A DNA stretch of 64,000 nt. It comes from Geodermatophilus sp. YIM 151500 (GTDB lineage Bacteria; Actinomycetota; Actinomycetes; Mycobacteriales; Geodermatophilaceae). The position numbers and the translations under genes are program-made. The stretch covers positions 26,391 through 90,390 of the forward strand of contig NZ_JAOVZT010000004.1 in NCBI RefSeq assembly GCF_025716945.1, written 5' to 3'. The number at the start of each line of letters is the position of its first letter. The first letter of the stretch is position 1. The notes under the pieces were generated by a model. That model worked only from the letters and a program-made list of their open reading frames with translations, was not told the DNA's origin and searched no databases. Of the stretch, positions 50,723-62,863 are shown in pieces.

Positions 50723-51931
50723 GTGGCCTTGTTTCCGGGAGCGGACGTGGAACGTGCCGAGGTGCTCGTCGTCGGCGGTGGCAACGCCGGGATCTCGCTG
50801 GCGGCGCGGCTGCTCCGCGACGGCGCCCCGGACGTCGCCGTCGTCGCCCCCCAACCGGTGCACAGGTACAAGCCGCTGCTCAACTACGTCGCCGGGGGCG
50901 AGGCGACGATGGCCGACCTGGAGCGCCCGATGGCCGACGTCGTCCCCGAGGGGTGCCGGTGGATCCGCGACGCGGTCGAGGCGGTCGACCCGACCGCCAT
51001 GACCGTGCGCACGCGCGGCGGGCGGGCGCTGTCCTGCTCGACCCTCGTCCTCTGCCCGGGCCTCGTCGAGGACTGGGAGGCCACCCCGGGGCTGCAGTCG
51101 GCCTACACCGACGGGTGGGCCGCCTCCTCGTACGTCCCGGGCAGCACGCCGCAGGTGTGGCCGAGGCTGACGGCGCTGCGGCGCGGCTCGGTGGTGTTCA
51201 CCGTGCCGCCGGAACCGGCGTCCTGCGGTCCGACCGCGCTCAAGCCGCTGCTCATGGCGTGCGACCACTGGCGGCGCGCCGGCGTGCTGCCGGACGTCGC
51301 GGTCCGGCTGGTGCTGCCCGGGCCAACGGCGACGGCTGTGCCGGAGGCCGACGAGATCCTCGACCGGACGTTCGCCGGCTACGGCGTCGAGGTGCTGCGC
51401 GAGGCCCGGATCGAGCGGGTGGACTGGGAGCGCCGCGCCGTCACGGTCACCTCGCCGTCCGGCCGGCGGGTGCTCGAGGACGTGGACTTCGCGCACGCGG
51501 TCCCGCACTACCGGGCGCCGAGCTGGATCGCCGACGGCGGCCTGGCCGCCGATCCGACCCCCGGCCTGGTCGACATCGACCCGGAGACGTTGCGCTCCCG
51601 TCGGCACGGATCGATCTGGGCGATCGGCGACGCCGCGGCCGTGGCGACCCGGCCGTCGGGCGGGGCGCTGCGGCAGCAGGTCGACATCCTGGCCAAGAAC
51701 CTCGCGGCCGCCCGGAAGGGGAAGCCGCTGCAGCGGTACGACGGCTACACGGTCATGCCGATCACGGTGGCCCGCCGGACGCTGCTGCTCGCGGAGGTCG
51801 ACCGTGACAGCCGGCCCAGCCCGTCGGTGCCGTTCGTCGACCCGATGAAGCCCCGCCGCGCCACCTGGTTCTTCGACCGCTACGTGCTGCCCAGGACCTA
51901 CTTCCGCCGCATCCTCCGCGGCCGGGTCTGA
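50723..51931 (+). CDS. FAD-dependent pyridine nucleotide-disulfide oxidoreductase, SQR-like
   Basis: This 402-aa flavoprotein resembles sulfide:quinone oxidoreductase. It shows VLVVGGGNAGISLAARLLRD (FAD), then PQPVHRYKPLLNYVAGGEAT, GSTPQVWPRL with a TVPPEPASCGPTALK segment (one Cys) and the late IWAIGDAAAVATRPSGGA. The second active-site Cys of true SQR is not obvious, so another quinone-linked substrate is possible. It follows the AhpD-like gene after 98 nt and may share its ECF41-type promoter. Confidence 0.85.
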   Translation: MALFPGADVERAEVLVVGGGNAGISLAARLLRDGAPDVAVVAPQPVHRYKPLLNYVAGGEATMADLERPMADVVPEGCRWIRDAVEAVDPTAMTVRTRGGRALSCSTLVLCPGLVEDWEATPGLQSAYTDGWAASSYVPGSTPQVWPRLTALRRGSVVFTVPPEPASCGPTALKPLLMACDHWRRAGVLPDVAVRLVLPGPTATAVPEADEILDRTFAGYGVEVLREARIERVDWERRAVTVTSPSGRRVLEDVDFAHAVPHYRAPSWIADGGLAADPTPGLVDIDPETLRSRRHGSIWAIGDAAAVATRPSGGALRQQVDILAKNLAAARKGKPLQRYDGYTVMPITVARRTLLLAEVDRDSRPSPSVPFVDPMKPRRATWFFDRYVLPRTYFRRILRGRV

Positions 51932-52006
51932 CCGGCCGCCGCTCCTCGGAGGGATGTCCGCCCTCTGGTGCAGGCTGGATCCCCACGTCACGGACAGGAG
52001 GCCGGG

Positions 52007-52747
52007 ATGGCCCAGCCGGCAGCGACCGGAGCGGCGGTGACCGAGGTGGTGGCCGAGCTGGCCGCGCTCGAGGACCCCAGGATCCGCGAGGTGAACGCCA
52101 GGCACGGTGACGACCACGGCGTGAACCTCAGCAAGCTGCGCGCGCTCGCCAAGCGGCTGAAGACGCAGCACGAGCTCGCGCGCGAGCTGTGGGAGACCGA
52201 TGACCCCGCGGCAAGACTGCTGGCCATCCTGGTCTGCCGCCCCAGGGCCTTCGAGCGGGACGAGCTGGACACCATGCTCCGCCGGGCGCGCACCCCCAAG
52301 GTGCACGACTGGCTCGTGAACCACGTGGTCAAGAAGCACCCGGCCGCCGAGGAGCTGCGCCTGGACTGGCTCACGGACCCGGATCCGGTGGTCGCAAGCG
52401 CGGGCTGGGCGCTGACCACCGAGCGCGTGGCCAAGGAACCCGACGGCCTCGACCTCGCGGGACTGCTCGACGTCATCGAGGCGGAGATGGTGGACGCCCC
52501 GGAGCGGCTGCAGTGGGCGATGAACCACTGCCTCGCCCAGATCGGGATCGAGCACGCCGAGCACCGCGCCCGCGCCATCGACATCGGCGAGCGCCTGCGG
52601 GTGCTCGAGGACTACCCGACACCCCCGAACTGCACGTCCCCGTTCGCGCCCATCTGGATCACCGAGATGGTGCGCCGCCGGCACGACGACAAGGGTTCCG
52701 CACTCCCGCTCAGCGGGGCGGACGCGAACACGCCGGCGAGCTCCTGA
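52007..52747 (+). CDS. DNA alkylation repair protein (AlkD-like HEAT repeat)
   Basis: This 246-aa protein of the AlkC/AlkD HEAT-like family excises alkylated bases without base flipping. It shows EDPRIREVNARHGDDHGVNLSK, LRALAKRLKTQHELARELWE, then LLAILVCRPRAFERDELDTM, and NHVVKKHPAAEELRLDW. ATG 52007 follows AGGAGG; the longer ORF start at 51968 is not supported. It converges on the ychF end, whose original 3-prime tail lies 20 nt beyond this gene. Confidence 0.85.
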   Translation: MAQPAATGAAVTEVVAELAALEDPRIREVNARHGDDHGVNLSKLRALAKRLKTQHELARELWETDDPAARLLAILVCRPRAFERDELDTMLRRARTPKVHDWLVNHVVKKHPAAEELRLDWLTDPDPVVASAGWALTTERVAKEPDGLDLAGLLDVIEAEMVDAPERLQWAMNHCLAQIGIEHAEHRARAIDIGERLRVLEDYPTPPNCTSPFAPIWITEMVRRRHDDKGSALPLSGADANTPASS

Positions 52748-52770: not shown

Positions 52771-52782
52771 ACGTTGAAGCGG
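52771..52782. repeat. Left attachment site (att core)
   Basis: ACGTTGAAGCGG equals the core at 61794-61805. On the minus strand the left copy lies within V-Y-R-F-N-V-stop (52767-52787), the displaced original end of ychF. With one mismatch the homology extends to GT-N-CCGCTTCAACGT. Nothing is annotated in the 686 bp from 52748 to 53433 except the doubtful ORF at 53065. Confidence 0.85.
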
Positions 52783-53064
52783 TACACCGGACTGTGGTCC
52801 CGGCTGACACTCATGACGCGTCGAGTGGCGTCCCACCGGCACAAACGCCTGCAGCGGCTACCGTCCGCTCCCACGTTCTTTCATCGTCCTGTGCCATGAA
52901 TGTGCCATGACGCGTCATGGCACGGGTTGCGCTGGCCCACGCGCTCGACGACGCCGCCGAGCCCGCCGTCCAGGAACCCGCCCCGGCCGTGCGTCCCCTG
53001 CGGTCGACAACCTCGCCGTCGAGTGAGCACGGTCACCAGCTCTCGCCGCCGACCGGCCACTAAC

Positions 53065-53331
53065 ATGATCATCGTGGTCGACGGGTATCGGCAGACCTCG
53101 TTCATCCCGGAGACCGCGCTCGGCGCGTGGGCCGACCTCGTGGCCGCCCTTGTGGGGATCCACGGCCCCGGCGCCGGCGCCCTGTGTGACGTCGTCCGGG
53201 GAGCGGACCGGCGCCCGTCGAAGCCCGGGTTCCCCGCGCAGGACCAGCCGGTCGACGGCCTCGCGGGGGCACGACGCCTACGCTGCACGAGGACCGCGGC
53301 GGCCAGCGCGAGGGGGTCAATATCGCAGTAG
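53065..53331 (+). CDS. Doubtful small ORF
   Basis: This 88-aa ORF starts at ATG 53065. Its first 40 residues (MIIVVDGYRQTSFIPETALG, then ALVGIHGPGAGALCDVV) look protein-like, but the rest is Arg/Pro-rich and unremarkable. There is a -10-like TAACAT just before the start. It could be a truncated or spurious gene. No family is recognised. Confidence 0.25.
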   Translation: MIIVVDGYRQTSFIPETALGAWADLVAALVGIHGPGAGALCDVVRGADRRPSKPGFPAQDQPVDGLAGARRLRCTRTAAASARGSISQ

Positions 53332-53433
53332 GGACACGTTTGGCTGTGCCGCGTCGCCGCTCAGGCGCGCTAATTAGTACCACTCAGGTATGACTTTGCA
53401 CTGTCCCACGACGTCGGCTCACGGGGGTTTGTC

Positions 53434-53886
53434 ATGCGGAAGGCCATCATCGGCACGGCGGTCCTGCTGGCGACAGCGGGCTGCGGCAGCGACATAGACG
53501 CGTCACAGCTGGACAACGGCCCCCGTCTCGATGGACGGCAGAGCTACAGCAGTCCGAACGAGTTGCTCGATGACCTCCTCGAACGAGGGATCCACTGCAC
53601 CGACCCCAAACCGCGACATAACCCCTCACGAGTGGTTGATGTCGACACGTCGGAATGCCGTATCGAAGGTGAGGATTACAACATCGAAGTGTTTGCGTCG
53701 CCTGTCGATCGGGACATGCTGATTGAGGGCCGTCAAGCCACTCTCGCCATCCTCGATGGACCTCACTGTGACGTGGTCGGAATTGGTTCTGGCGCGTGGG
53801 CGGTCGGCTCGTCGGACGACGTGGAGACGTGCGAACTGATCGCTCAGGCGCTCGGCGGAGAGGTCCGAGTGGTCGGTGGAGGCTGA
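53434..53886 (+). CDS. Putative lipoprotein (element cargo)
   Basis: This 150-aa secreted protein has a lipoprotein signal: MRKAIIGTAVLLATAGCGSD, lipobox A-T-A-G-C with Cys17. The mature part has about five more cysteines (IHCTDPK, SECRIEGED, HCDVVG, ETCELI), suggesting a disulfide-stabilised domain. Its base composition is less GC-rich than the chromosome, a sign of transfer. ATG 53434 follows GGGGG. Function is unknown; cell-surface roles such as superinfection exclusion are possible but unproven. Confidence 0.75.
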   Translation: MRKAIIGTAVLLATAGCGSDIDASQLDNGPRLDGRQSYSSPNELLDDLLERGIHCTDPKPRHNPSRVVDVDTSECRIEGEDYNIEVFASPVDRDMLIEGRQATLAILDGPHCDVVGIGSGAWAVGSSDDVETCELIAQALGGEVRVVGGG

Positions 53887-54081
53887 AATCGCTGGTTCAA
53901 GCCCGCAGTCGCAGCCAGGGGACCCCGCACCTTAGCCCATCGGGGGTAGGACGCCTCACCAACTGATGGTCGACCGTGGAGACGTTATGCAGCCTCGGTC
54001 GCCGGGGCAACGGGCGCCCCCCAGGGTGTGCAGACGACAGAGGTGCCTCCCGCCGGTCGACGTATAGGAGGCGGCAAGAGC

Positions 54082-54394
54082 TTGGACCGAGGTTGGAAGA
54101 TCGCGATCGCGGTTGTGTCGGTTGTGGCCTGGATGCTGTGGCGCAACGCCGCCGAGAGCGATGCCGTACCTGCGGCGCCAGCCGTCTGTAACCCACCCGA
54201 GCTGCGTGAAGAGTTCCTTGGGCCAGGTCAGGGTCCGCAGTGGTACACCGCCGAGTGGGATGCCTACTTCGACAGGTGCGGCCGTCCCGTACGTGCCGCC
54301 AGACCACTTGATCCCGGACGACCCGATTGATGACCCCGGGTTCTACGAACCAGACTTCGAGCCCTACTGTCCCGCTGGTCCTCGCAGCTGCTGA
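54082..54394 (+). CDS. Small single-TM protein, apparently frameshifted
   Basis: A TTG start at 54082 after AGGAGG gives a short N-terminus, one membrane helix (KIAIAVVSVVAWMLW) and an extracytoplasmic part with CNPPELREEFLGPGQGPQW and YFDRCG. In that frame a stop falls at 54330. In the +1 frame, reading continues as AAVPYVPPDHLIPDDPIDDP and ends YCPAGPRSC at 54394, with the same acidic, aromatic, cysteine-containing character. The simplest explanation is a single-base frameshift near 54275-54290, or programmed shifting. The family is not recognised. Confidence 0.45.
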
Positions 54395-54457
54395 TGGGCC
54401 ACGGTGGGGCTCGCCCGCCGCTCCGGAAACGGTGACGGTGCGCGCGGCCGATGAAAC

Positions 54458-55174
54458 TCACGCCTCCTCCAGCCGAGCTAGACAGGCTCGGCCCAGGTCG
54501 GTGATAGCCCACCGTCCGGGACCGCCCAACAGCTCGGACTTCACACCGCCGGAGACGGGCTCGATGAGGTGATGACCGGCCAGCACCTGCGTGACGGCAC
54601 CGAGAACCGTCCTGTGCCCCGGGAGCCGGTCGACGATCTCCGTATTCGTCAGGGTCAGGAGCTTCGCGCGGTCGGCGTAGCGGACCTCCGTCTCGTGACC
54701 GTCAGCCTGCTCGCGCAGCACGGCGAGCACCTGGACGTGCGGGGCCTCGATCGCGTCGAGCGCGGCGGTGAGGATCTGCGACTGGTCGACGGTGGCGTGC
54801 CCGTCGAGCCCGTTGGCCAGCACACGCCCAAGCGCCCGGATCTTGTTCTCATGGGTCGTGCGCATCGCGGCCTCGATCACCCGGACGGTCAGCTCTAGTC
54901 GAGCCTCGTCGGCGGTCGCGAGGTCGGCGAGTCGGTCAAGCCCGCCGACCTGCTCGGCGGTCGCTTCCAGAACACGCTCGCCACGGCTTGACCGGACGTC
55001 GAGTCCGTACCGGACCAGCGCGGCCAGCAGCGGAGCAGCCACCCCGGCGCTCGGTGTGCCGGTGGTCGCGAGGTCAAGCACTCCGGTGGCAGCAGAGGCG
55101 ATGGCGTCGGGCAGGGCGTCGAAAAGCCGCCGTTGCACGCTGCGGCTCGGCTCCGGCGTCTCGTCGTTGGTCAT
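54458..55174 (-). CDS. Hypothetical protein (238 aa) in the element
   Basis: Not recognised. The 238-aa protein has an N-terminal helical region with a hydrophobic stretch (AGVAAPLLAALVRYGLDV), a central helical segment (THENKIRALGRVLANGLDG) and a C-terminal winged-helix-like part (RTVLGAVTQVLAGHHLIEPV, then RWAITDLGRACLARL). This pattern resembles several phage/ICE-borne actinobacterial proteins. It lies outside the structural block and is likely cargo. ATG 55174 is the only reasonable start. Confidence 0.65.
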   Translation of the reverse strand: MTNDETPEPSRSVQRRLFDALPDAIASAATGVLDLATTGTPSAGVAAPLLAALVRYGLDVRSSRGERVLEATAEQVGGLDRLADLATADEARLELTVRVIEAAMRTTHENKIRALGRVLANGLDGHATVDQSQILTAALDAIEAPHVQVLAVLREQADGHETEVRYADRAKLLTLTNTEIVDRLPGHRTVLGAVTQVLAGHHLIEPVSGGVKSELLGGPGRWAITDLGRACLARLEEA

Positions 55175-55375
55175 GGCGGGACGTTACGACGTCCGACTCC
55201 GGGTAAGCCGCGCCCCCGGGAGGGGCGGCAGGGGCCACCTCCCGGGGGGCGCGGTCCTCGGCGCTGGTCGGATCCCCGGGGGGCTCACGTCCCCCTCCCC
55301 GCCATCGAGTCCCGCCGTCGGCCCCGGTGCCCCAGGGGCGCGGTCGCGGGTGACGTTGACGCCGAAGGTTCCAGA

Positions 55376-55639
55376 TCAGCCGCCGCGGCGGCGCTTGCGC
55401 GACGGCCGGCTGCCGGTGGCCGGTTCGGTTCCGGCGGCCGTCCGGTCGTCCGCGCTGCCGATCCCGCCGTCGACGAACGTGACCGTCTTGGCGATCTCGC
55501 CGCCGCGCCGGTCACCGGCCAGCCGGCCCATCACGGCCTGCTCGGCGGCGGCCGGTGAGGTGGCCCGGACCCGATGGACGGTCTCGTGCCCGTCGGGACG
55601 GCGGGTGAGCACCTCGAAGACCTCGGCGCTGTCGGCCAT
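55376..55639 (-). CDS. Small hypothetical protein downstream of the capsid gene
   Basis: This 87-aa protein shows FEVLTRRPDGHETVHRVRAT, VTFVDGGIG, and a basic tail (RPSRKRRRGG). It follows the capsid gene by 20 nt on the same strand and is probably co-transcribed. A capsid-decoration or head-associated role is possible but not evident from motifs. Its C-terminus resembles nucleic-acid-binding tails. ATG 55639. Confidence 0.6.
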   Translation of the reverse strand: MADSAEVFEVLTRRPDGHETVHRVRATSPAAAEQAVMGRLAGDRRGGEIAKTVTFVDGGIGSADDRTAAGTEPATGSRPSRKRRRGG

Positions 55640-55659
55640 GACGGGTCCTACCCTTCGGC

Positions 55660-57087
55660 TCAGGCGTCCAGGACGCGGACGGCGTCGGGGACGACCAGGT
55701 CGGCGCCGGTGCGGAACCACATGAGGAAGCCGCGCTCGCCGGTCGGCCGGCGGTTGGCGCCGAACAGGTGCGGCACGAGTTCGACGACGGTCCCGACCCG
55801 GTCGACCACGTAGTACTGCCGCAGGTCGCCGTAGATCATCAGGTGGTTGGTCGCCGCGGCGGTGACCGAGCCGTCCATCTCGGAGGACTCGTACACCCGG
55901 CGGCCGAGCAGCGCCGCCGGGGTGTTGTCGCCGAGCGCGGCCCAAAGGGCGGCGCTGCCGGTGGTGTCGAACTGCCGGACGGCGTCGTAGATGTCCTCGT
56001 TGGCCAGCCACGCCGCCTGCGCTCGCCACCGGGCCGGCAGCGCGGCCTTGAGCTTGTAGAGGTCGCCGAGGGCGAGGGTGTCGGCGCTCGCCGTCGCCAC
56101 GGTCTTGCCGGCCGCCACCGCGGCGGTGACGATGCCGCGCGGCTGGCCGGTGCCAGTGCCGGTGACGAACGCGGCGGCCTCCAGGCGGTCCTTGGCGTCG
56201 ACCAGCAGCCGGGCCATCTCCGCGGCGAAGGCCGCGGCGTCGCCGCCGACCTCGAAGGAGAAGGGGATCCAGGCGTCGCCCTTGTGCACCGGGATCGACG
56301 GCTGGCTCACCGTCGGGGAGGCGTCGGCGACCTCGGCCGCCTCGGCCTTCCACTCGGCGGTGACCCCGGCGGAGGTGACGCCGTTCCAAGCGTCGGTGGC
56401 GATGGTCTTGGTGGTGAACGCGTCGCGCAGCCGGACGTTCGAGGTTCCCGAGTTGGTCACCACGACCGCCGGGTCCAGGCTGAAGGGGACCATGAAGCCG
56501 CCGGCCCCGTCGGTGAGGCTCATCGCCCGCTGGAGCTGCTGCACGCGGGCGAACGCCTGCCGCTCGGCGTCGTCCCACTCGAACGAGCCGTGCTGCGGGT
56601 TCCGCACGAGCTTGTGGAACGCCGACCGGTAGGCCGGGTCACCGGCGACGGTGACCCACCGGGCCAGGGCGTCGGTCTCGTCGGCGTCGACGGCGCGGGC
56701 GACGGCGTCCAGCGCCGACCGGTGCAGGTGCCCGTCGGTGCGCTCGGTGCGGTCGAGCACGTCCAGCGCCCGACCGCGGACACCCTCCCGGACCGGACGC
56801 GCGTCCTGGCCCCCGCCCCAGTGGATGCCGTCGCGGCCGACCGGCACGACGCCGCGCCGGTCGATCACGGTCATGTCCTCGACCAGGTTGAGCAGGCCGT
56901 CGAGGGTCTTGACGAGGCCGCGGACCTCGGCCTGCTCGGCGTCGGAGAGGGCGCCGTCGGTGGCGCCGCGCTCCAGGTACTCGATCCGGGCGCGGACGCC
57001 ATCGGCCTCGCGCAGTACCTCGCCGGGGCTGGCGTCGGCGGCGCGGAACTGGTCGGCGGTACGGAAGATCACGGAAGGCTTGGGCAT
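55660..57087 (-). CDS. Phage major capsid protein, HK97 fold
   Basis: This 475-aa capsid protein has an N-terminal helical scaffold/delta region (about residues 25-70, EVLREADGVRARIEYLE). A linker leads to the HK97 body: SLTDGAGGFMVPFSLDPAVV, SQPSIPVHKGDAWIPFSFEV, RLEAAAFVTGTGTGQPRGI and LMIYGDLRQYYVVDRVG. No separate maturation protease is encoded nearby. It is the only recognisable structural gene of the element, the pattern of capsid-encoding phage satellites or phiRv1-type remnants. Confidence 0.9.
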   Translation of the reverse strand: MPKPSVIFRTADQFRAADASPGEVLREADGVRARIEYLERGATDGALSDAEQAEVRGLVKTLDGLLNLVEDMTVIDRRGVVPVGRDGIHWGGGQDARPVREGVRGRALDVLDRTERTDGHLHRSALDAVARAVDADETDALARWVTVAGDPAYRSAFHKLVRNPQHGSFEWDDAERQAFARVQQLQRAMSLTDGAGGFMVPFSLDPAVVVTNSGTSNVRLRDAFTTKTIATDAWNGVTSAGVTAEWKAEAAEVADASPTVSQPSIPVHKGDAWIPFSFEVGGDAAAFAAEMARLLVDAKDRLEAAAFVTGTGTGQPRGIVTAAVAAGKTVATASADTLALGDLYKLKAALPARWRAQAAWLANEDIYDAVRQFDTTGSAALWAALGDNTPAALLGRRVYESSEMDGSVTAAATNHLMIYGDLRQYYVVDRVGTVVELVPHLFGANRRPTGERGFLMWFRTGADLVVPDAVRVLDA

Positions 57088-57091
57088 GGGG

Positions 57092-57508
57092 TCACTCGCT
57101 CCACAGCAGAAGGGGGCACAAGGAGGACGCGCGTTGATGCGCTGGTCCGGCCTGCCTGTCCGTGCGGTGACGGTGGCCCTGGGTGCGGTGCCCCAAGCCG
57201 ACGACGATCACGGTACCGGCCTGTCCGCCGGGCCACGCGTGTCCCGTGACGGCTGGGGCCACCGGGAACTCCCATCCCGACCCGACGATCGAGCCCTCGG
57301 CGTCCTCGTCATCGAGGACGTTCAGCTCGGCGACGGCCAGGATCCGGCGGCGCTCCTGAAGCGCCCGGACCAGCGCGGCGGCCATGCGCATCCGGAAGTT
57401 CCGGACTGCGCCCGGGTCGGTCGCCGAGCGGCCGTCCATGAGGTCGAGCACCATCCACTTGATGGTGTCGTCGGACAGCCGGGCGACGTCGGTCTGGGAG
57501 ATCAGCAT
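57092..57508 (-). CDS. Hypothetical protein upstream of the capsid gene
   Basis: This 138-aa ORF lies 4 nt upstream of the capsid start. Its N-terminal half (ISQTDVARLSDDTIKWMVLD, then GAVRNFRMRMAAALVRALQE) looks like a genuine small helical protein; the C-terminal third is Arg/His/Gly-rich and less convincing. The start could be GTG 57508. A head-completion or regulatory role is possible. Coding status is moderate. Confidence 0.5.
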   Translation of the reverse strand: MLISQTDVARLSDDTIKWMVLDLMDGRSATDPGAVRNFRMRMAAALVRALQERRRILAVAELNVLDDEDAEGSIVGSGWEFPVAPAVTGHAWPGGQAGTVIVVGLGHRTQGHRHRTDRQAGPAHQRASSLCPLLLWSE

Positions 57509-57782
57509 GTGCGTGCCCTTAGCGTCATGACAGCGAGCCGTTGTTCGGTTGGGGGGAAATCGACGGCGGCGGGTCCAGCGCGGTGATCCGCCAGAGATTG
57601 CTCGGCGCCCAAGTAGCCGATGCGAGTCCGACCGGGGCGCACCGTCCGGCCTCCGAGCTGCGAGAACACACGTTTCCGCTGTCAGACTTGTCTCGCTTGA
57701 CGCTCGGACCCCGAATTACTGTGGGCCGCACGGAACCCGTCTGGACGTCCCTGGTTCGGGACTTCATCCGCCGGTTCGACCG

Positions 57783-57956
57783 GTGAGCGGGGCGTTCATC
57801 GCGCTGATCGGCACGCTGGTCGGGCTGATGGGTGCGTGTTTCCTGTGGCAGACCCGCACGCTCAAGGCCGGGTTCCGGGTCGAGATGGGGAGGGTGCGCG
57901 GCGAGCTGCGCGAGGGTCTGGCCCGCATCGAGGCCACCCTGCGTCGGCGTGGATGA
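57783..57956 (+). CDS. Possible small membrane protein on the opposite strand
   Basis: This 57-aa ORF has one membrane helix (FIALIGTLVGLMGACFLW) and a basic cytoplasmic tail (RVEMGRVRGELREGLARIEA). Its GTG start overlaps the TGA of an upstream 81-aa ORF (57541-57786), a gene-like arrangement. A competing minus-strand ORF (57525-58103), which overlaps the DUF3631 stop by GTGA, has poorer composition. Which strand is coding here is unresolved. Confidence 0.4.
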   Translation: MSGAFIALIGTLVGLMGACFLWQTRTLKAGFRVEMGRVRGELREGLARIEATLRRRG

Positions 57957-58099
57957 AGCCAGAACGGCCGCGCCGGGGTCGATGAGGTCCGACCGACGGT
58001 CGGCTGCCGGGCACCACGCGCACCTCGGTGGTCGGCCGGTGCTGCGCCGGCAAGTAGCAGTGCAGGCACGCCGCGTATGCGACGACATCAGGTTCCTGA

Positions 58100-59449
58100 T
58101 CACGCGACCCTCCCGGCGTTACACCCGTGCTCGTGGCCCTGGGTCTCGACGTGCCAGCCGCAGCCGGGGCAGCGACCAGGGCCGGTGAGCTTCACGAAGG
58201 GACGATCCGTATCCGGTCCAGCCGGTTGAGCCGCTTTATCCGGTTCGTGAAGAGGGGCCAGGTGGAACCGGCTGAACGGGAGGGTGAACGAGGCGCGCAG
58301 GTAGCCCCGGGGGCCCTGGGTGTGCGGCCGGCTGGCGTGGACGTCGTAGGCGGTGACGAGCATCCGGCCCAGCCGCTGCGCGGTGAGGCGCTTGCCGAAG
58401 GACGACCCCTCGCCCCACATCTCGGGGTGCTCCGAGACCAGGCGGTCGATCAGGTCCTCCGTGGCGATGAAGGACGCGGTGGTGTCGCTCCAGACCTTGT
58501 GGATGTGCTTGAGGAGCACGACGGCGGGCTGCTGCTGCATGAGTCCTTCCTCCTGTTCGAGCTGGATGCGCTTGACGTCGGCCACAGCAAGCACGTCGAC
58601 GAGCGCGGGCCAGCGGTCGCCGGCGGCGGCGGCCACGCGCTTGAGCGGCAGCCACCGCTCGCGGGCGCGACCCTTGATCAGCGGCGGCAGGTCGGGCCGG
58701 TGGTTCCGGACCCGGTCACGAACGTCGTCGGCCCACGCCGCCAGCCGGGCGCCCAGGAGGGCGGCGTCGTCCTCGATCCGCTCCCAGTCCGACTCCTCGA
58801 TGTCGTCGTCGGGCATGAGCAGGACCCGGATGCAACGGCTGCGGGTGTCCCCCGGGAGGTTCGGGTTGTTCCCGGCCATCGCGACGGGGGCGAAGGTGGG
58901 CATCTCCTTCGGCTCCCAGCCGCCGCCCTTGACCGGCACCAGGACCGGCCGGGTGGCACCGCGCTTGTACCCGCTATTGAGGATCGCCACCAGATCGGTG
59001 ACGCCGTCCTTGTTCGGGGCCAGCGTGCGGTCGACCTCGTCGATGAGCAGCGTGCGCAGCTCGGTGTCGAGCATCCGGGTGAGCAGGGCCGGCGAGGACA
59101 GCGCGGCTATCTGCACCGGCGCCCGGCAGAGCCGGAGCAGGTGCTCCAGCACGGTCGTCTTGCCCGCGCCGGGAACCGGCGAGTCCAGCACCAGTCGCGG
59201 GGTCGAGTAGGTCTCCTCGACCAGCCAGGTGTGCGCCGCCCACAGGGTCAGCAGGTCCAGGTCGGCCGGCGTCATGGTGGAGATGAACCGCCCCAGCCAG
59301 GCCCGGACCTCGTCGAGCACGAGGCCGTCGGCGTCGTAGCCGGTTCGGTCAGCCCTCTCCGGGAAACCGGATACTGCGGCTGAACCGGCCGAGCCGGATA
59401 CCGGCACCCCCTCGTCGAGGTCGACCTCGGCCAGCCACGGGTCACTCAT
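58100..59449 (-). CDS. DUF3631 domain protein (helicase/primase-like)
   Basis: This 449-aa protein is a phage/ICE replication-type ATPase with DUF3631. It shows a Walker A-like SPVPGAGKTTVLEHLLRLC at about residues 93-111 and Walker B-like RTLLIDEVDRTL at about 135-146. The AAA-type domain continues with AMAGNNPNLPGDTRSRCIRV, and a C-terminal zinc-ribbon-like CPGCGWHVETQGHEHGC follows. DUF3631 proteins are common in actinobacterial mobile elements. ATG 59449 overlaps the upstream TGA by 4 nt. Confidence 0.88.
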   Translation of the reverse strand: MSDPWLAEVDLDEGVPVSGSAGSAAVSGFPERADRTGYDADGLVLDEVRAWLGRFISTMTPADLDLLTLWAAHTWLVEETYSTPRLVLDSPVPGAGKTTVLEHLLRLCRAPVQIAALSSPALLTRMLDTELRTLLIDEVDRTLAPNKDGVTDLVAILNSGYKRGATRPVLVPVKGGGWEPKEMPTFAPVAMAGNNPNLPGDTRSRCIRVLLMPDDDIEESDWERIEDDAALLGARLAAWADDVRDRVRNHRPDLPPLIKGRARERWLPLKRVAAAAGDRWPALVDVLAVADVKRIQLEQEEGLMQQQPAVVLLKHIHKVWSDTTASFIATEDLIDRLVSEHPEMWGEGSSFGKRLTAQRLGRMLVTAYDVHASRPHTQGPRGYLRASFTLPFSRFHLAPLHEPDKAAQPAGPDTDRPFVKLTGPGRCPGCGWHVETQGHEHGCNAGRVA

Positions 59450-59793
59450 GCACACCGCCTCGGAAGGACCGGGCCATAGCGCCGAGGATCCGCGCCGAGG
59501 GCCCTGCGCACATGAGCCGGAGGCAGCCCGACCAGCCCAACGGTGCGCAGGTGAGCCAGCGCGCGCGCCCAGGCGTCCAGCTCGACGACGTCGACGAGGC
59601 CGACGTCGTTCGCCGGGTTGAGCGGATCGCGACGGCCGTCCGGCAGCGGCTCACACCGCAGGGCGGCCCGACGGCGACGGCCGAGCTGTGCGGCGGTCGT
59701 GTCCGACGTCCTGGGACCGGTACCGTGGTCGTGCCCGCCCGGCACGTTCACCACGGCGCCCTTCTCGACCTTGTTGGGACGGGCGTTCGTCAT
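59446..59793 (-). CDS. Small hypothetical protein between excisionase and DUF3631 genes
   Basis: This 115-aa protein shows EKGAVVNVPGGHDHGTGPRT, AQLGRRRRAALRCEPLPDGR and VELDAWARALAHLRTVGL. No family is recognised. It overlaps both neighbours by 4 nt (ATGA at each end), so it is firmly part of the coupled early block. It could be a replication or regulatory accessory protein. Confidence 0.7.
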   Translation of the reverse strand: MTNARPNKVEKGAVVNVPGGHDHGTGPRTSDTTAAQLGRRRRAALRCEPLPDGRRDPLNPANDVGLVDVVELDAWARALAHLRTVGLVGLPPAHVRRALGADPRRYGPVLPRRCA

Positions 59794-59990
59794 GCCGCCC
59801 CCGCGCTCGGCCCGTCCGCCTGCTCGTCGAGCCAGGCGTCGACGTCCTCCCACCGGTAGCGAAGGTGCTTGCCGACGCGGATGCCGCGGGGGCCCTTGGC
59901 CTGCGTCCTCCAGTTGTAGAGCGTCTGCTTGGGCACGCCGATGTAGGCGGCCACATCCTCGACCGTGCCGAGCGGGGTGGGGTGGATCAT
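59790..59990 (-). CDS. xis: Excisionase-family HTH protein
   Basis: This 66-aa protein consists of an AlpA/excisionase-type MerR-like HTH: GTVEDVAAYIGVPKQTLYNW, then RTQAKGPRGIRVGKHLRYRW and EDVDAWLDEQAD. Such proteins bend DNA for excision or act as transcriptional regulators. It is the first gene of the leftward block, and its promoter lies in the divergent region with the repeated operator. ATG 59990. Confidence 0.88.
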   Translation of the reverse strand: MIHPTPLGTVEDVAAYIGVPKQTLYNWRTQAKGPRGIRVGKHLRYRWEDVDAWLDEQADGPSAGAA

Positions 59991-60014
59991 GAGCTTGAGC
60001 CTCCATCGAACAGC

Positions 60015-60091
60015 TTGACGGGGTGTTCCGACGAGGAGTCAACCACGATGAGCCGCGTGGTGGTGCAAGTTGACGGGATGTACCGTCGTGG
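60015..60091. promoter_or_regulatory. Two copies of a 22-bp operator in the divergent control region
   Basis: Copies at 60015-60036 and 60070-60091 share TTGACGGG, TGT, CCG, CG and GG in the same register, 18 of 22 bases identical, with start positions 55 bp apart. The second contains the inverted repeat GACGG-gatgta-CCGTC. They lie between the leftward excisionase gene and the rightward regulator-like gene. TTGACG and TACCGT inside copy 2 could also be promoter boxes. Confidence 0.75.
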
Positions 60092-60097
60092 TGTCAC

Positions 60098-60667
60098 ATG
60101 GCTCCCATGCCTAACGTGCTCATGGCGATCGAGGGCCCCCCCGACGGCTGGATCCTGTACGGGGGTCGGCTGTCGGCGACGCCCGCAACGGTGACGCTCA
60201 CCCCGGACGACGAGGACAAGGACCCGTTGAACTTCGAGGTGGTCATGGACCTCGACGTGATCGACGGCCGGCTGTCCTGCACCCGCGTGGCCGCCCAGCG
60301 CCTGTCCGAGGACGCGCCGGGCATCAGCACCGAAGACCTGCGGCGCATACCGGTGGCGAGCTACGTGCGGCTGGCGGCGCTGGAACTGGGGCTGGTCCGT
60401 GAGCCAACCGACCGGGGGTGGGGCCAGGTCGGCCCCTTACCGCCGCCCGACTTCGCGAAGTCGGGCATGACCGACGAGGCACTTGATCAGTTCGCGCGGC
60501 TCTACGCGATCGTCCAGGCGGCCGGCGGCAAGCCGTCCGGCGTCCTGCTGAACGACTACGGGATGCCGCGCGCCACCTCCTCCCGGTGGCTGGCCACCGC
60601 CCGGCGGCGTCGGGTCCTCGTCGAAGATCACTACCGGATCGAGGAGGCAGTCCGTGGCCAGCGTTGA
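60098..60667 (+). CDS. Element regulator-like protein upstream of the integrase
   Basis: This 189-aa protein is not assigned to a family. The N-terminal part (WILYGGRLSATPATVTLTPD) is a small beta-rich region. The C-terminal part (VQAAGGKPSGVLLNDYGMPR, then ATSSRWLATARRRRVL) looks like a helix-turn-helix, with the SSRWLATARRR segment as a recognition helix. It overlaps the integrase start by 14 nt. It is the best candidate for the repressor that binds the 22-bp operators. ATG 60098. Confidence 0.7.
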   Translation: MAPMPNVLMAIEGPPDGWILYGGRLSATPATVTLTPDDEDKDPLNFEVVMDLDVIDGRLSCTRVAAQRLSEDAPGISTEDLRRIPVASYVRLAALELGLVREPTDRGWGQVGPLPPPDFAKSGMTDEALDQFARLYAIVQAAGGKPSGVLLNDYGMPRATSSRWLATARRRRVLVEDHYRIEEAVRGQR

Positions 60668-61769
60668 ATCCCGGGTGACGCGGCGGAACGGCCGCGGGAC
60701 GAAGGTCTACGACGTCCGGTTCCGCGACCCGGACGGGCGCCAGCGGAAGAAGACGTTCGCGAAGAAGGGTGACGCCGACCGGTTCGCCGCGACCGTCGAG
60801 GCCGACAAGCTGCGCGGTCAGTACGTCGATCACTCCGACCGTACGACGGTTGCGGAGTACGCCCGTGCATGGGCGGCAGCCCGGCCGCACCGTCCAACGA
60901 CGGCTCGCCGGGTGTCCAGCCTGATTGAGACGCACATCGCGGGGACGAGGCTCGGCGATCGTCGGCTCTCGGCGGTGCGGCCGTCGGAGGTGCAGACCTG
61001 GGCCAGCGACCGGGCGCATGTGCTCGCGCCGTCGACGCTGCGGAATCTCGTCTCACTGCTGCGGTCGATCTACGCCAGCGCGGTACTGGACCGGCTGGCG
61101 GCGTCCTCGCCGGTCGTCCGTGTGGCACTTCCTCGGCATGAACGTGCTCGCGTCGTGCCGCTGACCGTGGCGCAGGTGCAGGCACTCGCCGATGCGATGC
61201 CAGCGAGGAACCGGGCGATGGTCCTGACACAGGCCGGCCTGGGCCTCCGCATCGGCGAGCTGCTGTCACTGCGGCTTGAGGACGTCGACTTTCTGCGGCG
61301 CACCGTGCGGGTCGAGTGGCAGATCGCACCGGGCAGCAAGATGCGGTCAGAGCCGAAGACCCCTCGATCGCGGAGGACGCTCCCTCTCCCCCAAGTCGTC
61401 GCCGACGCGCTAGCCGCCCACATCCATCAGTTCCCGCCGGGCGCGGATGGGTCGCTGTTCACCACGACCACCGGCGCCGTGTACCGACACGACTACTACG
61501 GGTCGATGATCTTAGCGTCGGCAGTAGAGCGCGCCGGGCTACCCGCGGGGACCACCAGCCACGACCTCCGGCACCACTTCGCCTCGGTCCTGCTGGCCGC
61601 CGGCGAGTCCGTCGTCGCGGTCGCCGAGCGCCTGGGCCATGAGAACGCGGCTCTCGTGCTGTCGACGTACGGACACCTGATGCCCGACTCGGAGGAGCGC
61701 ACCCGGCGGGCCATCGACGAGGCGTGGTGCGCCATCACCGTGCCATCGGAGCAGGCCGCAAGCGGCTGA
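60654..61769 (+). CDS. int: Tyrosine recombinase (integrase)
   Basis: This 371-aa phage-type integrase has an N-terminal arm-binding AP2-like region (VYDVRFRDPDGRQRKKTF), a core-binding SAM-like domain (TTVAEYARAWAAARPHRPTT) and the catalytic domain. Arg is in GLGLRIGELLSLRLED (about residue 199), the HxxR box in HDLRHHFAS (about 303), and the nucleophile Tyr is at about 339 in STYGHLMPDS. It sits 24 bp from attR and is expected to catalyse site-specific insertion into ychF. GTG 60654. Confidence 0.93.
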   Translation: MASVESRVTRRNGRGTKVYDVRFRDPDGRQRKKTFAKKGDADRFAATVEADKLRGQYVDHSDRTTVAEYARAWAAARPHRPTTARRVSSLIETHIAGTRLGDRRLSAVRPSEVQTWASDRAHVLAPSTLRNLVSLLRSIYASAVLDRLAASSPVVRVALPRHERARVVPLTVAQVQALADAMPARNRAMVLTQAGLGLRIGELLSLRLEDVDFLRRTVRVEWQIAPGSKMRSEPKTPRSRRTLPLPQVVADALAAHIHQFPPGADGSLFTTTTGAVYRHDYYGSMILASAVERAGLPAGTTSHDLRHHFASVLLAAGESVVAVAERLGHENAALVLSTYGHLMPDSEERTRRAIDEAWCAITVPSEQAASG

Positions 61770-61789
61770 CCTGCGAAGACAGAGAGGAG

Positions 61790-62863
61790 TTACACGTTGA
61801 AGCGGAACTCCACGACGTCGCCGTCCGCCATGACGTAGTCCTTGCCCTCGATGCGCACCCAGCCGCGGGCCTTGGCCTCGGCCATCGATCCGGCCTCCAT
61901 CAACTGGTCGTACGACACGATCTCGGCCTTGATGAAGCCGCGCTGGAAGTCGGTGTGGATCACCCCGGCCGCCTGCGGAGCCGTGGCGCCGATCGGGATC
62001 GTCCAGGCGCGCGCCTCCTTGGGACCTGCCGTCAGGTAGGTCTGCAGGCCGAGGGTGGCGAAGCCGACCCGGGCCAGCTGGTGCAGGCCCGGCTCGTCCT
62101 GACCGACGGCGGCCAGCAGCTCGGCCGCCTCCTCGTCGGGCAGCTCGGCGAGCTCGGCCTCGACCTTGGCGTCGAGCACGATCGCCTCGGCCGGCGCGAC
62201 CAGCTTCCGCAGCGAGGCGATCAGCTCCTCGTTGGCCAGCTCCTCCTCGTCGACGTTGAACACGTAGAGGAACGGCTTGGTGGTCAGCAGCGACAGCTCG
62301 CGCAGCGGCTCGCGGTCGACCCCGGCGGCGTACAGCGTCCGCCCGCTGTTCAGCACCTCCTGGGCGGTCACCGCGGCGGCCAGGACGGCGGATTTCTCCT
62401 TGTCCTTCCGCGATTCCTTCTCCAGCCGCGGGATCGCCTTTTCCAGCGTCTGCAGGTCGGCCAGCACCAGCTCGGTGTTGATCGTCTCGATGTCGTCCGC
62501 CGGGTCGACCGTGCCCTCGACGTGCACCACGTCGGGGTCGTCGAACACCCGGATCACCTGGCAGATCGCGTCGCTCTCGCGGATGTTCGCCAGGAACTTG
62601 TTGCCCAGCCCGGCACCCTCGCTCGCACCCTTCACGATGCCGGCGATGTCGACGAATGACACCGTCGCCGGCACGACCTTCTGGCTGCCGAACAGCTCCC
62701 CGAGCCTGGCCAGCCGCCCGTCGGGCACGCCGACGACGCCGACGTTCGGCTCGATCGTCGCGAACGGGTAGTTCGCCGCCAGCACGTCGTTCTTGGTCAG
62801 CGCGTTGAACAGCGTCGACTTGCCGACGTTGGGCAGCCCGACGATGCCGATGGTGAGACTCAC
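61790..62863 (-). CDS. ychF: Redox-regulated ATPase YchF (element insertion target)
   Basis: This 357-aa Obg-like GTPase-family ATPase (OLA1/YchF) begins VSLTIGIVGLPNVGKSTLFN with the P-loop. It has a helical region and the C-terminal TGS domain ending VEFRFNV. The protein is essentially complete; its last codons and stop are supplied by the integrated element. YchF binds ribosomes and 26S-type complexes in other organisms and affects stress survival. The insertion keeps the coding region intact, as usual for integrases that target conserved gene ends. GTG 62863. Confidence 0.95.
   Translation of the reverse strand: MSLTIGIVGLPNVGKSTLFNALTKNDVLAANYPFATIEPNVGVVGVPDGRLARLGELFGSQKVVPATVSFVDIAGIVKGASEGAGLGNKFLANIRESDAICQVIRVFDDPDVVHVEGTVDPADDIETINTELVLADLQTLEKAIPRLEKESRKDKEKSAVLAAAVTAQEVLNSGRTLYAAGVDREPLRELSLLTTKPFLYVFNVDEEELANEELIASLRKLVAPAEAIVLDAKVEAELAELPDEEAAELLAAVGQDEPGLHQLARVGFATLGLQTYLTAGPKEARAWTIPIGATAPQAAGVIHTDFQRGFIKAEIVSYDQLMEAGSMAEAKARGWVRIEGKDYVMADGDVVEFRFNV
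61794..61805. repeat. Right attachment site (att core)
   Basis: ACGTTGAAGCGG is the second copy of the 12-bp repeat. It lies within the current ychF 3-prime end. The minus-strand reading F-R-F-N-V-TAA shows that the element supplied the present stop codon. Confidence 0.85.

Follow-up and report, generated by a model that had tools for sequence, protein, structure and literature searches.

Divergent control of repressor and excisionase genes, exerted through repeated operators which overlap the promoters, is known from lambda-like phages and integrative elements. The stretch of DNA analyzed here, 64,000 nucleotides from Geodermatophilus sp. YIM 151500 (the window), resembles such regions in its divergent regulator and excision genes and in its repeated candidate operators at a likely promoter. 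It differs from them in that its regulator was assigned to no repressor family by the libraries against which it was scanned, and in that its two sites are widely spaced, one of them lying over a likely leaderless promoter. As a divergent control region with a pair of operators, the wider system would be of a known kind, with a regulator that is little studied. In pSAM2-type elements, the GntR-type KorSA represses pra, and Pra activates the operon of int, xis and repSA, as set out in PMC3218068. The locus in the window shares with these elements that it is an actinobacterial integrative element whose excision genes would be under element-encoded regulators (PMC3218068), yet, judged by the description of KorSA and Pra given there, it differs in having divergent xis and int genes and a candidate repressor beside int. 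For the candidate PICIs of Mycobacterium, the criterion given in PMC10654092 is an integrase and a major capsid gene in the integrated region; the element in the window contains both genes (PF00589 and PF05065), enclosed by likely att cores, and may on this basis be classed as a candidate PICI or capsid-carrying phage satellite. The three tyrosine-integrase examples drawn in that paper sit at tRNA genes, whereas the present element sits at ychF. The literature searched contained no paper joining phage satellite, actinobacteria, capsid, integrase and excisionase.

Positions 52771-61805, about 9.0 kb, are the most likely extent of the element. Its likely attL core, ACGTTGAAGCGG (52771..52782, plus strand), is a 12-bp match to the likely attR core at the ychF 3' end (61794..61805, plus strand), which is the start of a block common to other ychF 3' ends and is kept in 27 of the 28 readable family ychF ends, L129 being different. 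Since several other 12-bp matches to the attR stretch are present in the window, such a match is weak by itself, and the proposed span draws in addition on the TCAG left of 52771, the bases seen at many family junctions, and on loci L125 and L122, in which the end of the gene stopping at 51931 directly adjoins ychF; in the window, an extra 259-aa ORF (51968-52747) separates that gene from 52771. Within the element, the rightward tyrosine integrase (371 aa, 60654..61769, plus strand; PF00589 2.4e-20, phrog_1 2.6e-60) overlaps the regulator 3' end and ends 24 bp before the core ACGTTGAAGCGG; as a query against viral contigs it found no relative. On the minus strand, the excisionase gene is followed downstream by a 115-aa protein with no assigned function (59446..59793), for which 52-71% identity over the N-terminal 25-59 residues is found in L017, L051 and L052, and the same strand encodes a DUF3631 protein (451 aa, 58100..59455; PF12307 1.1e-22) and an HK97-type major capsid protein (475 aa, 55660..57087; PF05065 1.2e-41, TIGR01554). 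Two ORFs lie at the left end of the element (about 52.8-55.2 kb): one of 150 aa, lipoprotein-like and scanned against PADLOC only, and one of 238 aa for which no clear family match was obtained. The same site at ychF is occupied by L050 (in G020), an element whose integrase is 89% identical and whose 120-aa minus-strand ORF (L050:2587-2949) may resemble a phage terminase small subunit. In several relatives, integrase-tail-like sequence directly adjoins the ychF 3' end (61790-61860 and L113-L140), which appears to be a hotspot of integration within the bacterial family.

The leftward side of the control region begins with an excisionase-like HTH_17 protein of 66 aa (59790..59990, minus strand; PF12728 2.9e-12, phrog_66 1.7e-10, TIGR01764 33.6 bits against a cut-off of 28.8), preceded by GGAGG, a ribosome-binding-like site read from the sequence (60000..60004, minus strand). 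Between this gene and the rightward regulator lie two direct copies of a repeat, TTGACGGGGTGTTCCGACGAGGAGTCA at 60015 (copy 1, 60015..60041, plus strand) and TTGACGGGATGTACCGTCGTGGTGTCA at 60070 (copy 2, 60070..60096, plus strand). An earlier note had placed two copies, 55 bp apart and 18/22 identical, between a leftward excisionase block and rightward regulator-integrase genes; recomputation gave the same values (p=1e-4 by dinucleotide shuffles of the 116-bp intergenic region), and family matches support the excisionase and the integrase. The unit of 22 bp was too short, as the match extends to at least 27 bp, with 22 of 27 positions identical at the same start-to-start distance of 55 bp, and none of 20,000 dinucleotide shuffles of the intergenic region reached this value (p=5e-5). 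When the first six and last three columns, those which a promoter could explain, were dropped, 13 of the remaining 18 were still identical (binomial 7e-5). Repeated sites above chance between divergent genes, as expected of a repressor-operator switch region, are therefore present.

The repeat is rare outside the control region: elsewhere in the window no site exceeded 18/27 to either copy, and a degenerate 27-mer pattern with at most two mismatches found both window sites and one two-mismatch site in G041 in a draw of 108 family genomes which left out the genome holding L017. Four of the five differences between the copies are exchanges of A and T (composition-based P of about 6e-4, post hoc), and it may be that these positions require A or T, in whichever orientation. 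The spacing corresponds to about 5.2 helical turns; cooperative binding at this distance is possible but not indicated. Dyad symmetry was not relied on, the self reverse-complement match being 14/28 for copy 1 and 12/28 for copy 2. One reading of the copies gives LDGVFRRGVN and VDGMYRRGVT, with three silent changes; a coding explanation was rejected because 55 is not a multiple of three and the copies are thus not in one frame.

The start of the regulator bears on how copy 2 is read. The earlier note had a 189-aa protein starting 7 bp beyond copy 2, at 60098; a start at 60107 fits better and is probably the real one, giving a gene of 186 aa (60107..60667, plus strand) that encodes a beta-rich N-terminal part and HTH-type C-terminal helices, and the choice follows from reading copy 2 as part of a leaderless promoter. 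A -35-like TTGACG (60070..60075, plus strand) lies 37 nt before the ATG at 60107, and a putative -10, TCACAT (60094..60099, plus strand), a poor match to TATAAT, lies 7 nt before it. The window and L017 share the order TTGACG, 18 nt, TCACAT (TCACTT in L017, at the same spacing), 7 or 5 nt, start codon and then a proline codon. Copy 2 would thus not stand alone as an operator; it probably fills the interval between the -35 and -10 boxes, these included, of a leaderless promoter of the regulator. Among 11 aligned control regions, eight have a box matching TTGACA at five or six positions 35-37 nt before the start, L051 has a box matching at 4/6, and L085 and L092 have none; as the start codons of the relatives were partly picked by box fit, some circularity enters this regularity, to a lesser degree in L050, L051 and L065 with their XRE-like genes. 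Further boxes, each 37 nt before the start, are TTGAAA in L143, TTGGAC in L144 and TTGACG in L150. Some actinobacteria have many leaderless genes: in M. tuberculosis they make up 26% of those genes for which there is a primary start site, in the account given in PMC3898074, which describes TANNNT at -10 in 73% of primary starts and, in that account, no -35 motif. The poor -10, the lack of a -35 motif in that account and a consensus promoter scan of the control region that called no promoter on either strand all keep the leaderless promoter at the level of a likely inference. On the excisionase side, TTGACT at the edge of copy 1 (60037..60042, minus strand), also read from the sequence, is a possible -35 with no good -10 after it, and nothing was called there by the same scan.

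With moderate confidence, the two copies are read here as operators of the element's own 186-aa HTH-type regulator, which would repress the divergent promoters. We infer from the DNA the binding, the repression, the promoter activity and what relieves the repression. Binding at copy 2 would silence the regulator-integrase operon, a form of autorepression, because copy 2 covers the -35 to -10 of the regulator promoter. Copy 1, the putative xis-side operator, lies immediately before the excisionase gene, on what would be its promoter or the first part of its transcript, and the regulator bound there would hold the excisionase and the leftward genes silent while the element is integrated. Both sides would be released once the regulator is lost or displaced. 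For a small integrative element with a capsid gene at ychF, this would be a control scheme open to testing.

The closest relative of the regulator is in L017, from a Frankiales metagenome assembly, with 47% identity in the regulator and 63% in the excisionase. It has one clear copy only, at the promoter position: this counterpart of copy 2, TTGACGAGATGTTTCGCGGGCGGTTCA, matches the two-copy consensus at 19/27, a value reached by 2 of 300 simple shuffles. The motif search also listed a possible second, inverted site of 17/27 in L017. A long imperfect inverted repeat, seen by eye between the excisionase and regulator genes (L017:5052-5096), is a possible separate operator.

Recurrence of the arrangement, as distinct from its letters, was assessed by asking whether the 16-mer anchored at the -35 recurs upstream as a direct repeat in 12 regulator-family regions and in three with an XRE-like regulator. 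The 12 were chosen by a visible regulator match and, in nine, a visible -35-like box; for the three others, L085, L145 and L146, the anchor was assumed to lie 36 nt before the start. The set does not include L092 and weaker family members, no upstream excisionase match was found in L146, and the limit of the regions on the excisionase side was drawn by eye. In 10 of the 15 regions (L068, L082, L143, L144, L145, L146, L150, L050, L051 and L065) the printed codon is not a start codon. The anchored 16-mer recurred at p<0.05 in five of the 12 family regions (the window, L068, L084, L143 and L150), in four of them at <0.01, and L144 stood at p=0.054 (0.046 in a second run); no repeat was found in L017, L082, L083, L085, L145 and L146. 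For the 11 family regions without the window, the Fisher combined p was 1.9e-4, to be read with the possible shared ancestry of L143 and L144, which makes the 12 regions not fully independent. The three elements with a related integrase and excisionase and an XRE-like regulator (L050, L051 and L065) gave no such repeat. As a control, 240 segments from within the 12 regulator genes were compared in the same way: three of them gave 12/16, five gave 11, and none gave 13 or more. The -35 segments scored 14 in both the window and L150, 12 in L068 and L143, and 11 in L084 and L144. Only the window and L150 therefore lie outside the control, and L068, L143, L084 and L144 are at its edge.

The single cases differ in their letters. 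An exact 10-mer pair, TGACGGAACC, is found in L068 at 55 bp, as in the window (p=0.002 for an exact repeat); its second member lies within the -35 box and its first reaches into the start codon region of the excisionase, with which it shares the last base, and the regulator of this locus is only 22-28% identical. In L150, TTGACGTTGGTAT is repeated 24 bp apart. An untargeted search for 27-bp repeats, which left out the L068 copy at the excisionase start, reached p<0.05 in two regions, the window and L084 (0.027), and not in L017, L068, L082, L083, L085 or the three XRE elements. The arrangement is thus seen again, with other letters, in part of the regulator family. The earlier note had proposed searching other elements for the motif: among the relatives examined, the sequence was recovered only in part, as the single copy of L017, and the arrangement in five of the 12 family regions, six being without it.

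Three other explanations of the copies must be weighed. One, which is improbable, is the duplication of a promoter. Copy 1 would then be a second rightward promoter or a decayed relic, and the likeness of the copies would reflect RNA polymerase recognition and recent descent, not a regulator. Each copy indeed has TTGACG at its start and TCA at its end, as far apart as in a promoter, L017 retains the promoter copy only, and half of the 12 family regions are without a repeat. The 13 of 18 matching spacer columns speak against it, as a promoter need not conserve them; moreover, the -10 position of copy 1 reads TCAACC, with no start codon 5-7 nt beyond, and in L068 and L150, too, the -35 flanks are repeated, although their sequences are different ones. 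Some excisionases regulate their own region, and the copies could accordingly be sites of the 66-aa HTH_17 protein, whose gene adjoins copy 1 and whose best PHROG is annotated as 'excisionase and transcriptional regulator' (phrog_66). Excisionase sites are usually near att cores, whereas the copies lie about 1.7 kb from the att core, and in L050, whose excisionase is 63% identical, the best motif match is 13/27 (p 0.997) with no -35-anchored repeat, so that this explanation, too, is judged unlikely. The excisionase of L050 is as similar as that of L017, yet L050 is without such a site, and the repeats occur in 5/12 of the regulator's family as against 0/3 of the XRE-like elements; on both counts the 186-aa protein would be the better candidate binder.

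Sites of the arm type for the integrase would be direct repeats beside the integrase operon, as the copies are, and the integrase N-terminus is 88-92% identical in three genomes. The copies are, however, separated from attR by about 1.7 kb and the whole integrase gene, and a different short motif, TGACCTGC, flanks the att core both in the window and in L050 and recurs at 8 of 28 other ychF junctions; L050, with its 89% identical integrase, lacks the repeat motif. Arm sites, which the distance and the different core-flanking motif led us to reject, are thus highly improbable. Operators of the 186-aa regulator remain the preferred reading. The proposal of the earlier note, that the copies bind a switch protein, possibly the 189-aa protein, gains from their position, their duplication and the recurrence in the family, and loses in that copy 2 is also a likely promoter and that six family regions have no repeat.

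The regulator itself is modeled with a mean pLDDT of 73.6, with a beta-rich N-terminal part and C-terminal helices at residues 123-138, 143-151 and 155-167, and the model suggests an HTH-like C-terminus. It has no match among the Pfam and NCBIfam models and none better than E=0.19 in PHROG, and a Foldseek search against the PDB gave no match at E<=0.001. Other members of its alignment, not the window's regulator, match HTH models and, weakly, DUF6214 (PF19720), which four of seven members match with a best E of 0.0016, a lead only; the window's regulator has no match to the DUF6214 model, with no Pfam family at E<=0.1 or at E<=1. The literature searched contained neither DUF6214 nor a described function for the regulator family. 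Against viral contigs, phages and plasmids the regulator found no relative, as did the L068 regulator against viral contigs; against genome contigs it found one locus, L017. The order of a divergent excisionase-like gene, then the regulator, then the integrase occurs in 12 of 41 family loci, the window included, and in six of 11 further loci, one of which (L142) is a repeat of L085. The family often stands beside integrases across many actinobacterial genera. It is a tentative proposal, and rather doubtful at present, that this is a widespread undescribed actinobacterial HTH-type family, often directly before an integrase, in which the -35 of the regulator's own leaderless promoter anchors an operator that is repeated towards the divergent excisionase; the letters would drift with the regulator, forming element-specific immunity groups, and the geometry, with the box 35-37 nt before the start and a second copy 24-55 bp upstream, would persist. 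If operators do track the regulator, they would be usable for sorting such elements into immunity groups.

In L050, L051 and L065, an XRE-like regulator (named by eye) occupies the slot of the 186-aa protein beside a related integrase and excisionase, which suggests that the regulator-operator module is swapped between elements. Paired GTTGACTGG-type repeats are found near the att core by the ychF 3' end in L115, L119 and L120, and are possibly arm sites of the integrase.
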